Source: Bacteroidota bacterium (GTDB lineage: Bacteria > Bacteroidota > Bacteroidia > B-17B0 > Aurantibacillaceae). From it: DNA of 64,000 nt. Positions 31,365 through 59,660 of the stretch are shown here, piece after piece. Each line of letters begins with the position of its first letter. Within the stretch, counting starts at the first letter, position 1. The notes below the pieces were generated by a model. The model worked only from the letters and a program-made list of their open reading frames with translations, had not been told where the DNA came from and made no database searches. The DNA lies in NCBI GenBank assembly GCA_029237825.1, contig JAQZBQ010000003.1, positions 62,001 through 126,000 on the forward strand, given 5' to 3'. Position numbers and translations under genes: made by a program.

Positions 31365-31365
31365 C

Positions 31366-31733
31366 GGTGGACCCGGAGAGATTCGAACTCTCGTCCAAAC
31401 AAGGAATTAATATGCTTTCTACGAAGTTTAGAACATAATTGATTTTCGATTTAAGTCCGGCTTATATTCATACCAAACTTAAACTTAGATGCTAATATTG
31501 TTTCAGCTAACATCATCACAGAAACAATTTGCTAATTTATGATGCAAAATTCCCGTCGCTAAGCAAAGACGCTACGGGGTTTGCAAAGGTTGCTAAATCT
31601 TGGATTAAGCAGCCATAGCGTAAGAATTCTCTTCGCCGAATAAAAGTTTGAGAGTTGAGTTTTAGGTGCCATATCCACAACGCACCACCTGCTTACATAT
31701 CAATCGCGCTCGCTGTCAAAACCGGTCGGGCCC
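31366..31733 (-). ncRNA. ssrA: tmRNA
   Basis: About 368 nt. The 5' end GGGCCCG (31733 downward) pairs with CGGGTCC near the 3' end, including the G3-U70 wobble that alanyl-tRNA synthetase recognises. The D-like region reads GACCGGTTTTGACAGC and the T arm GAGAGTTCGAATCTCTC. The tag frame at 31637-31605 reads GEENSYAMAA then TAA, similar to Bacteroidota tags ending in YA(L/M)AA. The CCA end is not encoded: after discriminator A only CC precedes G. It rescues stalled ribosomes with SmpB. It lies 44 bases downstream of the serine hydrolase gene and may share its transcript or use an internal promoter. Confidence 0.95.
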
Positions 31734-56671: not shown

Positions 56672-57124
56672 ATGGAAAAAGTATCACAGCAGTTTTTAGA
56701 AGCCATTAATTTATTGATTGAAATTAATCAGTGCAGGGCGGAAGGATATAATGCCGTTGCAGATGAAATTTCGGGATCAACAATGAAAACATTGTTTTCG
56801 AGGTTAGCTGAAACTAGCTGGGAATGTCATGAAGAATTACATGCTGAGCTCCGCCGCCTTGGTGGAATAAAAGAATATATTTCTAAACCCGACATGTACC
56901 TCCCGTGGCAAGACCTAAAATCCATGGATATTAACAATAATAAGAAGCTTGTTTTTACATCAAGTGTGTATTGCGACCATGTGGTTAAGATGGCATACGA
57001 GGATGCACTGAAAAAAGCCGAGGAATCGATGATTAGCAATAAAGATCTGATATCACGACATTATTATATGATTACGGAAGACATAAACCGAGTCTCAAAT
57101 TTAAAAAAAGCGTTTGTATCCTAA
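56672..57124 (+). CDS. DUF2383/PA2169-type four-helix bundle protein
   Basis: A 150-residue helical protein (EAINLLIEINQCRAEGYNAV; CHEELHAELRRLGG; DHVVKMAYEDALKKAEES) with Glu/His positions like those of ferritin-like DUF2383 proteins, a family linked to stress and sporulation coats. Metal binding is possible through E..EELH..E but unproven. It follows the phosphoglucomutase gene by 8 bases and ends at a strong terminator. Confidence 0.85.
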   Translation: MEKVSQQFLEAINLLIEINQCRAEGYNAVADEISGSTMKTLFSRLAETSWECHEELHAELRRLGGIKEYISKPDMYLPWQDLKSMDINNNKKLVFTSSVYCDHVVKMAYEDALKKAEESMISNKDLISRHYYMITEDINRVSNLKKAFVS

Positions 57125-57149
57125 AAAAGGCCTTCGGGCCTTTTTTTTT
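57123..57149 (+). terminator. Strong Rho-independent terminator
   Basis: AAAAGGCC-TTCG-GGCCTTTT with a T9 tail: an 8-pair stem capped by a UUCG tetraloop, beginning at the TAA of the DUF2383-type gene. Confidence 0.95.
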
Positions 57150-57366
57150 GATCTTATCCTTACTTTAACATCGGTTCCTTTGATTAAATAAAAATAATTT
57201 AAGCGATGTATATATTATAGCAATGATTTAAATACATCTATCTAAACTGAAGGTTAATCTCTAAAGAAATCCATTTATACCTAACATGGTAAAATAGTAC
57301 AAGTAACTGATCAGTTAAACTAGTATCTAAGTAAATATTAATTGAGGTACAAAGTTTCATAAATGC

Positions 57367-57401
57367 AAAAGATCGGGATACCAGTGGTATTCCGATCTTT
57401 T
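57367..57401. terminator. Long hairpin, likely bidirectional terminator
   Basis: AAAAGATCGGGATACC and GGTATTCCGATCTTTT pair over about 16 bases with one G-U position and a 3-base loop, with A/T runs at both ends. On the minus strand it would end transcripts reading through from the beta-propeller gene and the repeat array; on the plus strand it would separate the array from upstream readthrough. Confidence 0.75.
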
Positions 57402-57438
57402 GACGGCTCCTGATTTTGAAACTCTTTTCATTATTAAG

Positions 57439-57819
57439 CCTTACGGGGCTTTGCGGAAAGTAGAATAATAAACCAGGTCTGGAAAAAATGTCTGCCTTAC
57501 GGGGCATGCCAATCATTCCTACATTATGTCGTCTAACAGCTTAAAGTAACCTTACGGGGTTTGTCAATAAACGGTTTCGACTACTTAGATTTCCTAACCT
57601 TACGGGGTTAGATAATTATATTCTAATTGATATTATATTCGAGCCTTACGGGGCTGAGTATATAACAACAATCATATTTAAAACGTCATAAGCCTTACGG
57701 GGCTAGTGACACTAATTTTTGTTTAACATGTAATAGTCACTTAATCGGCCTTACGGGGCTTGCTTGTTGCGCCTATTTCATGTTAAACAGTTTTGAAAAA
57801 ATTGGTCGGCCTTACGGGG
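57439..57819 (+). repeat. Array of eight CCTTACGGGG hairpin repeats
   Basis: Copies start at 57439, 57495, 57550, 57598, 57644, 57693, 57749 and 57810 (periods 56, 55, 48, 46, 49, 56, 61). The 10-base core is invariant. Flanking bases pair in every copy although they differ: AAGCC/GGCTT, TGCC/GGCA, AACC/GGTT, CTAACC/GGTTAG, AGCC/GGCT twice, and GGCC/GGCT twice (G-U allowed). On the plus strand the core folds as CCU-UACG-GGG, a UNCG-type tetraloop. The wobble pairs favour a plus-strand RNA. Spacers are AT-rich and mostly unique; GTTTAACATG in spacer 6 (57721-57730) is inverted in spacer 7 (57779-57788). Spacings are not multiples of three and stops abound, so it is not coding. Function unknown. 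Confidence 0.85.
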
Positions 57820-57881
57820 CTTGCCCAATCCTATGTGATTTTAAAGAACGTTCTGCAATTTCAATCTTAAAAGAAAACCAA

Positions 57882-59546
57882 TTATTTGTTCACCACAACC
57901 TTTCTAGTGGTGATCGTTTTGTCATTGTTTTTAATTTCCATAAAATAAATACCGCTATCCATATTAGAAATGTCCACATTGATTTTAGTATTATGCTTTG
58001 CTATTTTAGGATCTACCGTTTGGCCCAGGCAATTGGTTACACATACACTAACTTTTGATGTACTTTGCGCCACATCTACAGTAAACATTCCTGAACCTGG
58101 ATTTGGATAGATATGGACATTTTTTGATGTCAATGGTAAATCATTTATTCCAACCATCTGGGACATCTGGGTTACAAACGCATCTGTTCGGTCATAGTTA
58201 GTCACACTGATTGTTCCAAAATTTCCACCATCAAGCAAGCCACCGGTCGCATACACATTACCAATTCCATCCGCACAAATAGCTACACCCGATTCATATC
58301 CGAGTGATTCAACCCCATCAGGTGCACCACCAACCGCAATCGCACTAACAAAATTTCCCGAGTTATTAAAGGCCGCAAAGAACACATCCGAACTATCCGC
58401 AGCAGTTACTGTGGAAGACCCAAAACCTGCTGTTCCACCAAACTGGCCAGTAATGAAAAGGTGACTGCCATCAGTGCCGATACCTCTTGCACGGTCAATT
58501 AAAGGTCCACCAGCACGCTTGGCCCATTGTGTATTTCCATTTGCATCATAACATGCGATAAATACGTCAGCGTTTCCACCAGTAATCAACTGTGTTGATC
58601 CAAACATAGCAGAGGCGTTAAACTCTCCCGTTGTATAAATCATGCCCGCATTATCAATAGCCAAATCCCAGGCAACTTCATCATAATCCCCGCCAGCTGT
58701 TGTTACCCAAAGCAGGTTACCATTACTTGAATATTTAGCTACAAACGCGTCATAATAAGATCCGCTGCTTACAGAATAAGTCTGACTTCCGAATACAGCT
58801 CCATTCGAATAGAATCCGCAAACATAGACATTACCACTTGCGTCACATTTTATATTTTTCATTTCGTCACGGCCAGATCCGCCAGCTTTTCTTACCCATT
58901 GGAAATTTCCATCAGCATCATACTTAGCAATAAACATATCACTGTCTCCCGAACCATAAATTGTTGTAGTTCCACCGAAGGTGCATGTGTCTTTATAGTA
59001 TCCACACATATAAACGTTTCCTGAGTTGTCATATGTTACTCCTAATGATTTCTCACTGTAATGACCACCTTCCGTTCTTGCCCAGAGTAGGTTCCCGTTT
59101 AAATCATATTTGGCAAGCAAAATATCATTGTCACCTTTAGCGGTCACTGTCACGGTTGATCCTGGGAAAGATATGATGTGGCCAGCGCCCTCAATTTCAC
59201 CAGACACGTACAGGTAATTAGATCCATCACAATCCAAATCATGTGCATAATCACCGAGTGAACCACCACAAGTGCGGATCCAGGTTAACGCACCTGCAGG
59301 CGTATACTTTGCCAGAAATAAATCATGATTACAATCTGGAACACCATTACATGGTAACGTAGTTCCACTAAAGTTAGCGGCCATTTCATACTTGCCGGCT
59401 ACGTAAACATTCCCCGCATTGTCATTGACAATTCCCATTCCATAATCATAGGCCCAAAGACCTTCTCCCTTTGCCCAACCAAAGGTTTGCGATTTCAAGT
59501 TAATGTAAGCTATGCTTAACAAAATTAGTAAGTAGGTTTTTTTCAT
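57882..59546 (-). CDS. Secreted SBBP-type beta-propeller protein with type IX sorting domain
   Basis: 554 residues from ATG 59546 (MKKTYLLILLSIAYINLKSQ signal). About ten repeats of the form GNLLWARTEGG...D...G.DNSGNVYMCGYY run through residues 25-460, the SBBP beta-propeller pattern. The C-terminal ~75 residues are a T9SS type A sorting domain (VHIYPNPGSGMFTVDVAQ ... ITTRKVVVNK). It should be displayed or released at the cell surface; binding partner unknown. Its 3' end is followed by the UACG hairpin array. Confidence 0.93.
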   Translation of the reverse strand: MKKTYLLILLSIAYINLKSQTFGWAKGEGLWAYDYGMGIVNDNAGNVYVAGKYEMAANFSGTTLPCNGVPDCNHDLFLAKYTPAGALTWIRTCGGSLGDYAHDLDCDGSNYLYVSGEIEGAGHIISFPGSTVTVTAKGDNDILLAKYDLNGNLLWARTEGGHYSEKSLGVTYDNSGNVYMCGYYKDTCTFGGTTTIYGSGDSDMFIAKYDADGNFQWVRKAGGSGRDEMKNIKCDASGNVYVCGFYSNGAVFGSQTYSVSSGSYYDAFVAKYSSNGNLLWVTTAGGDYDEVAWDLAIDNAGMIYTTGEFNASAMFGSTQLITGGNADVFIACYDANGNTQWAKRAGGPLIDRARGIGTDGSHLFITGQFGGTAGFGSSTVTAADSSDVFFAAFNNSGNFVSAIAVGGAPDGVESLGYESGVAICADGIGNVYATGGLLDGGNFGTISVTNYDRTDAFVTQMSQMVGINDLPLTSKNVHIYPNPGSGMFTVDVAQSTSKVSVCVTNCLGQTVDPKIAKHNTKINVDISNMDSGIYFMEIKNNDKTITTRKVVVNK

Positions 59547-59660
59547 AACATTTAATTTTAGTGCTTTGATTTGTTGTAAACTTACTTTACTAAAAACCAA
59601 TTATCTTTATAATTTCGGTGATTGCGTATTTACAATAGCCGGATAAATGAAATATTTATT

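Follow-up and report, generated by a model that had tools for sequence, protein, structure and literature searches.

An intergenic array of fixed-loop hairpins with covarying stems recurs in class Bacteroidia, with single copies in queA leaders: a possible multivalent RNA

A run of short repeats in a 64,000-nucleotide stretch of DNA (hereafter, the window) from contig C13 of a 3.55-Mb, Bacteroidota-type genome (G000) raises the question of whether such repeats act as DNA or RNA and, if as RNA, from which strand and to what end. The repeated core, CCTTACGGGG, is present on the plus strand of the window in eight exact copies, as compared to none expected by chance, spaced 46-61 bases apart and together spanning positions 57439-57819 (Table 1). 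When up to one mismatch was allowed, 10 matches were found, as compared to a mean of 1.36 and a maximum of 4 in shuffled sequences. The eight exact copies and their spacing agree with an earlier, sequence-only reading of this DNA. Elsewhere in the 3.55-Mb genome, the exact core appears in two single copies, one forming an intrinsic terminator hairpin and the other lying within coding sequence. The array is intergenic, being located between the ends of a DUF2383 gene, which is followed directly by its own terminator (at about 57125-57150, as read from the sequence), and a gene encoding a secreted beta-propeller protein. It sits immediately 3' of the latter and on the same strand, namely, in the position of a 3' untranslated region (UTR).

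Table 1. Positions of the array hairpins, the adjoining palindrome and the flanking genes in the window. Bit scores of the hairpins come from R1, a covariance model of the hairpin.
Feature	Core	Position	Strand	Basis
Hairpin 1	57810-57819	57802-57827	-	R1, 24.2 bits
Hairpin 2	57749-57758	57741-57766	-	R1, 23.6 bits
Hairpin 3	57693-57702	57685-57710	-	R1, 26.8 bits
Hairpin 4	57644-57653	57636-57661	-	R1, 26.4 bits
Hairpin 5	57598-57607	57590-57615	-	R1, 28.2 bits
Hairpin 6	57550-57559	57542-57567	-	R1, 23.7 bits
Hairpin 7	57495-57504	57487-57512	-	R1, 24.5 bits
Hairpin 8, last on the minus strand	57439-57448	57431-57456	-	R1, 25.6 bits
Near-perfect 18-bp palindrome past hairpin 8		57366-57402	-	Repeat search, fold
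DUF2383 gene, convergent neighbor		56672-57124	+	Pfam
Gene for secreted beta-propeller protein with type IX secretion sorting tail		57882-59600	-	Pfam (Por_Secre_tail, SBBP)

The sequence-only reading had maintained that the bases flanking each core differ between copies and still pair. For the eight copies in the window, Watson-Crick pairing is seen at stem pairs 2-3 in 14 of 16 cells, as compared to 9.5 expected (exact permutation test, P = 0.006), with pairing further out being weak (P = 0.03 for pairs 2-4 and P = 0.13 for pairs 2-5). The evidence for pairing is overwhelming only when other genomes are added. Across 227 hairpins from 41 arrays, shuffling the right flanks within each array (2,000 shuffles) lowered the number of Watson-Crick cells from 1032 to 767 ± 16, with a maximum of 822. 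Likewise, in an alignment of 102 distinct hairpins gathered by exact core, 83% of the cells are paired (61.5% upon shuffling), double changes number 198 (85 expected from shuffles), the covariation score is 0.569 (0.208 when shuffled and at most 0.144 when slid) and two-sided change is seen in six of the seven stem pairs. Such covariation reveals selection on a hairpin with a fixed loop and bears out the earlier proposal that a nucleic acid structure is being maintained here.

Because these hairpins were collected by exact core, invariance of the core in the alignment is by construction, and loop conservation was hence measured separately, by tallying any hairpin in the array spans whose loop has six bases and whose stem contains five or more Watson-Crick pairs, whatever the sequence of the loop. 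Read from the minus strand, the loop is the hexaloop CCGUAA, found in 78 of the 107 hairpins so tallied; the commonest variant, CUGUAA, accounts for 10 (from nine genomes) and a few single changes were seen, such that the family consensus is CYGUAA. As the array spans were anchored by the core, some excess of CCGUAA is to be expected in this tally, with the variants still showing which changes are tolerated. A general preference of terminators for this loop was rejected, since CCGUAA was absent from all 181 terminator-like hairpins (0 of 94 and 0 of 87) in 864 kb sampled from two genomes.

In the sequence-only reading, the hairpins were assigned to the plus strand, where they would be capped by a UACG tetraloop, with G-U pairs being said to fit that strand alone. 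Both strand and loop were probably misassigned, given that the UACG tetraloop arises only on the plus reading and that the minus strand is well supported by the position of terminators, linker composition, folding and the sense of the queA leader hairpins described below. The last hairpin on the minus strand carries a U-tract in 18 of 41 arrays, as compared to 14 of 196 internal hairpins (Fisher P = 5e-8), and has a stem of 8.6 pairs, as compared to 5.9 for internal hairpins; at the plus-strand end of the 41 arrays, no comparable signal combining a long stem and a U-tract was detected. The folding z-score is lower on the minus strand in 21 of 25 arrays (P = 0.0009), and 166 of 191 hairpins are formed in the minimum-energy fold of that strand, as opposed to 113 on the plus strand, where 78 are lost. 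Outside the genus of the window, the minus-strand linkers of most arrays are rich in A and poor in U (e.g., A 0.55, U 0.11), with those inside the genus not being A-rich (A 0.34, T 0.40). Wobbles at pairs 1-2 favor the minus strand, by 19 to 3 when counted by hairpin and by 10 to 3 when counted by genome (P = 0.09), an asymmetry that is mixed and fades beyond pair 2; the window array itself has two wobbles, both of the plus type and both at pair 3, in its two rightmost hairpins. Promoter patterns were also considered. The strict pattern TANNTTTG showed no strand preference (6 versus 7 arrays, with about 5 expected for each), and a looser one, [AT][TC]CTTTGT[AG]TC, which was picked after inspection, was found upstream on the minus strand in four arrays and on the plus strand in none.

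For the window array, inclusion of the palindrome past hairpin 8 yields a minus-strand z-score of -5.07, with the hairpins formed, as compared to -1.38 for the plus strand without the palindrome; over equal spans, the difference between strands is small (-2.72 for minus versus -1.96 for plus). This palindrome is probably an intrinsic terminator marking the end of a minus-strand transcript, and is possibly bidirectional. At the opposite end of the array, hairpin 1 has an outer stem, AUUGG/CCAAU, followed by U6, and is a possible terminator of the secretion-tail gene. Hairpin 2 forms the tip of a long stem generated by an inverted repeat (57720-57736 and 57773-57789; repeat search and fold), and no other hairpin of the array has a contiguous inner stem as long as that of hairpin 5, at seven pairs.

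Orthologous arrays were found at the end of the same gene in two congeners among 20 genomes of the genus, with eight hairpins in G008 and 10 in G016, where the secreted beta-propeller protein orthologues share 78 and 80% identity, respectively, with that of the window. The hairpin nearest this gene is near-identical in the three genomes, with the sequence of hairpin 1, AAAAAATTGGTCGGCCTTACGGGGCTTRCCCAATCC, being identical in G008 and G016. As another secreted-protein gene intervenes between the DUF2383 gene and the array in G016, the array has remained linked to the first secreted-protein gene. By eye, the array hairpins of the genus also share, beyond the inner stem, a small internal loop in which RYA (5' side of the minus-strand RNA) faces GA (3' side), and then an outer stem.

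When the contigs of 84,980 genomes were scanned for pairs of cores lying 36-66 bases apart, the matches listed were mostly CRISPR arrays of other phyla, recognized by their identical flanks, together with a set of Bacteroidota loci in which the flanks are variable yet pair. Some CRISPR repeats of Firmicutes, Thermus and cyanobacteria indeed carry CCTTACGGGG, and CRISPR explains most of the non-Bacteroidota matches but not the present array, where only the 10-base core is identical and the flanks, unlike those of CRISPR, vary with compensation. Among the non-Bacteroidota loci of L054-L133, repeats containing CCCCTTACGGGG, a CCCC/GGGG hairpin, were seen in CRISPR arrays from Firmicutes, Thermus, Synergistales and cyanobacteria. 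Coding repeats were also rejected, since ORFs over the arrays, upon inspection, cross the core in different frames and differ between genomes; on both counts, the sequence-only reading had judged correctly.

Within the class Bacteroidia, two cores 14-44 bases apart were found in 29 of 395 genomes (18 genera), as compared to two for the reversed pattern, and core triplets in 14 of these 395 genomes, as compared to none. Paired flanks, whose absence elsewhere the sequence-only reading would have taken as refutation, are present in other genomes, and arrays with the same core are present in many families of the class. Genome-wide totals of the core do not exceed those of the reversed-pattern control, with each genome having its hairpins gathered in one cluster or a few, at odds with a neutral repeat scattered in high copy. 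The genes next to the arrays differ among families, such that conservation of position does not extend beyond genera or families. From their translations, we take these neighbors to be ribBA (G058, f61, L091, L110), thyA (Flavisolibacter and G144), panB (f4), ychF (f58) and others. Some arrays, those of G058 and G232, lie between divergent genes, and others, those of f58 and f61, are antisense to the flanking genes.

Several further observations were made on these loci. What we read as ribBA adjoins arrays or single CCGUAA hairpins in several families (L001, L091, L110, L177, L178, L181, L283, L319). Arrays of f4 (L198, L200, L007) are interleaved with a second type of hairpin, with a loop of CAACCC or CAGCCC and a stem of GAGCG/CGCTC or similar. 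Those of G385 (L174, L203) and G198 (L204) are enlarged by exact or near-exact 63-bp tandem duplications of two hairpins each, and a single genome, G144, prompted the idea of an array near the replication terminus.

Searches with R1 also returned one isolated match in many genomes of the genus. In seven of the 10 isolated loci read, the match takes the form AUUAAUC-CCGUAA-GAUUAAU, or one close to it, and this hairpin opens the leader of queA just past a TTTG-type promoter, with the identity of QueA being backed by Pfam. In the class, a CCGUAA hairpin of at least four pairs lies no more than 300 bases upstream of queA in 9 of 30 genomes, where about 0.05 would be expected from a background of 0.0025-0.005 per kb and strand; this count takes related genomes as independent, with at least four families remaining. 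The families concerned are f1, f4, f21 and f28, across which the stems differ (AUUAAUC/GAUUAU, AUUAAG/CUUAAU, AAAAAUUA/UAAUUUUU), and similar leader hairpins were seen by eye in f23 and f36. The leader hairpins have the sense of the minus-strand array, that is, the sense of the mRNA. Most hairpin-bearing leaders contain, nearer the start codon, the motif CUUAY, complementary to GUAAG of the hairpin, and pairing between the two would allow a switch between two structures. In the window genus, queA leaders were also seen to contain a second hairpin, GAAAURGC/CUAUUUC, and conserved queA leaders were noted in several Bacteroidia families (L236-L242, L249-L252, L254, L255, L284, L285, L287, L291). 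The conserved 5' leader is a candidate cis-regulatory RNA for which Rfam holds no match. The window genome has lost the leader hairpin and its CUUAY partner (L248) while keeping the array, and the leader hairpin is absent in most array-bearing genomes outside f1, f4, f21, f23 and f36. As such, queA cannot be the sole target of whatever reads the arrays. Isolated copies elsewhere are mostly terminators.

The explanation that we favor, with a probability of about 0.4, is that the array is a multivalent structured RNA of the minus strand for a loop-recognizing factor, with queA as one single-copy target. A loop that is kept while the stems are rebuilt, many copies in some RNAs and a single copy in a leader together favor such a binding RNA. 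The array would be transcribed from the minus strand, either forming the 3' UTR of the secreted-protein gene or yielding a small RNA, separate or processed, with its end near position 57366; in the window genus, its location 3' of that gene and on the same strand suggests expression within the 3' UTR or through processing into a small RNA. The arrays of f58, f61, G058 and G232 would need promoters of their own, as no co-directional gene is found directly upstream. The RNA would offer eight copies of a recognition hairpin, each comprising a short variable stem, a C-G closing pair and the hexaloop CCGUAA, with the fixed loop being read by a factor acting in trans, for which an RNA-binding protein is the likeliest candidate. 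Since the stems would need only to pair, they could drift with compensation. Repetition would make the array a multivalent platform, able to titrate or concentrate the factor, and the factor would regulate queuosine synthesis by targeting the single copies in queA 5' leaders. The earlier idea of an RNA with repeated binding hairpins, or a sponge, survives as the best reading, shorn of its plus strand and UACG loop. That a post-transcriptional system of this kind, with a factor reading CYGUAA hairpins, arrays serving as sponges, queA-type leaders serving as targets and a tie to queuosine, operates across the class Bacteroidia strikes us as rather unlikely.

Among the alternatives, the first is that the array acts in cis as a 3' UTR, providing stepwise termination and protection of the secreted-protein mRNA from 3' exonucleases, or separating convergent genes, with the loop having spread by terminator duplication. 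We consider this to be somewhat improbable. Stability alone does not demand that a loop remain fixed while stems are rebuilt, the same loop is found in queA 5' leaders, and arrays between divergent genes (G058, G232) or antisense to flanking genes (f58, f61) are hard to place in such a scheme, even if the array of the window genus does follow a gene on the same strand. Terminators argue both ways. The U6 tract of hairpin 1, the intrinsic terminators that, with the loop unchanged, form the final hairpin of many arrays, and the isolated copies elsewhere all speak for a role in termination, yet a U-tract follows so few of the internal hairpins.

A second alternative, an element acting at the DNA level, with the palindromes being read as single-stranded DNA or cruciforms by a transposase or recombinase, is quite improbable. 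It draws on the tandem, intergenic arrangement of the palindromes, as sometimes seen in REP/BIME elements with RAYT transposases, on the 63-bp duplications in G385 and G198, and on a tandem C-CTTACGGGG-GC repeat that adjoins a Y1 transposase gene in G397 and G414. The REP-like family entertained in the sequence-only reading found no support, however, as a repeat driven by RAYT, given that neither G000 nor G016 contains a Y1 transposase and that dispersed copies are few. Moreover, this transposase is not specific to array genomes, being found in 28 of 33 genomes with arrays and 26 of 32 without, and the asymmetry between strands in linkers, terminators and queA leader sense points to an array with the polarity of a predicted transcript, unlike REP elements. 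Tandem GTCGCCCCTTACGGGGCTTTGGGTGT repeats that adjoin a Y1 (REP-type) transposase gene at L190 and L191 are probably unrelated to the arrays.

The anticodon loop of tRNA-Tyr is CUGUAAA. CYGUAA corresponds to positions 32-37 of that loop, up to C or U at position 33, and the link to queA is strong, such that the hairpins could be thought to mimic this loop, binding the queuosine enzymes Tgt or QueA in feedback on queA. Bacterial Tgt can modify an mRNA hairpin, that of virF, according to work cited in PMC3660597 and PMC8136771. Still, the minimum requirement of the E. coli enzyme is described as UGU in the loop (Nakanishi, 1994, cited in PMC3660597). Tgt substrates present this UGU in a seven-base loop, whereas the loop here has six bases and contains CGU in 78 of 88 cases. 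As the main loop lacks the required UGU, such mimicry is given little weight and is held to be very improbable. Least probable is an RNA transcribed from the plus strand, with U-G pairs closing UACG tetraloops, for although UACG does lie within the invariant core and the wobbles of the window are plus-type, a C(UNCG)G-type loop is not conserved, the commonest variant reading UACA on that strand and so breaking the UNCG motif, and folding, terminators and queA leaders point the other way.

At gathering score, Rfam matched none of the hairpins in the window, 20 array loci and eight queA loci, with the tmRNA of the window being the sole match; this gene lies at 31365-31733 on the minus strand and specifies the tag peptide GEENSYAMAA. 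A literature search that took in few subscription journals turned up no account of arrays like these or of a queA leader in Bacteroidota, which is weak evidence of novelty. Even on a conservative reading, an uncatalogued, strongly covarying family of RNA hairpins and an uncatalogued queA leader element are added.

Of known systems, intrinsic terminators account for most isolated copies and for the hairpin that ends many arrays, but internal hairpins mostly lack a U-tract and the fixed loop differs from that commonly seen in terminators of these genomes. PreQ1 riboswitches similarly lie in the leaders of queuosine genes and offer a parallel to the possible loop-tail pairing of GUAAG and CUUAY, although the queA element matches no Rfam family and the arrays have no CUUAY partner. 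Also akin to the RNA proposed here are the sponge RNAs CsrB/CsrC and RsmX/Y/Z, which contain many short hairpins per RNA with variable stems and a fixed loop, as the arrays do at the level of sequence, and for which a few targets have single copies. The loops are, however, GGA there and CYGUAA here, the phylum is another one, and the arrays occupy various loci; the likeness to CsrB concerns the mode of working, not homology, and the partner of the array is one that we infer. Were the proposal correct, Bacteroidota would possess an RNA-sponge architecture comparable to CsrB, with a different loop and a concrete candidate target in queA, and the CCGUAA hairpin would offer a precise bait for pulling down the partner.
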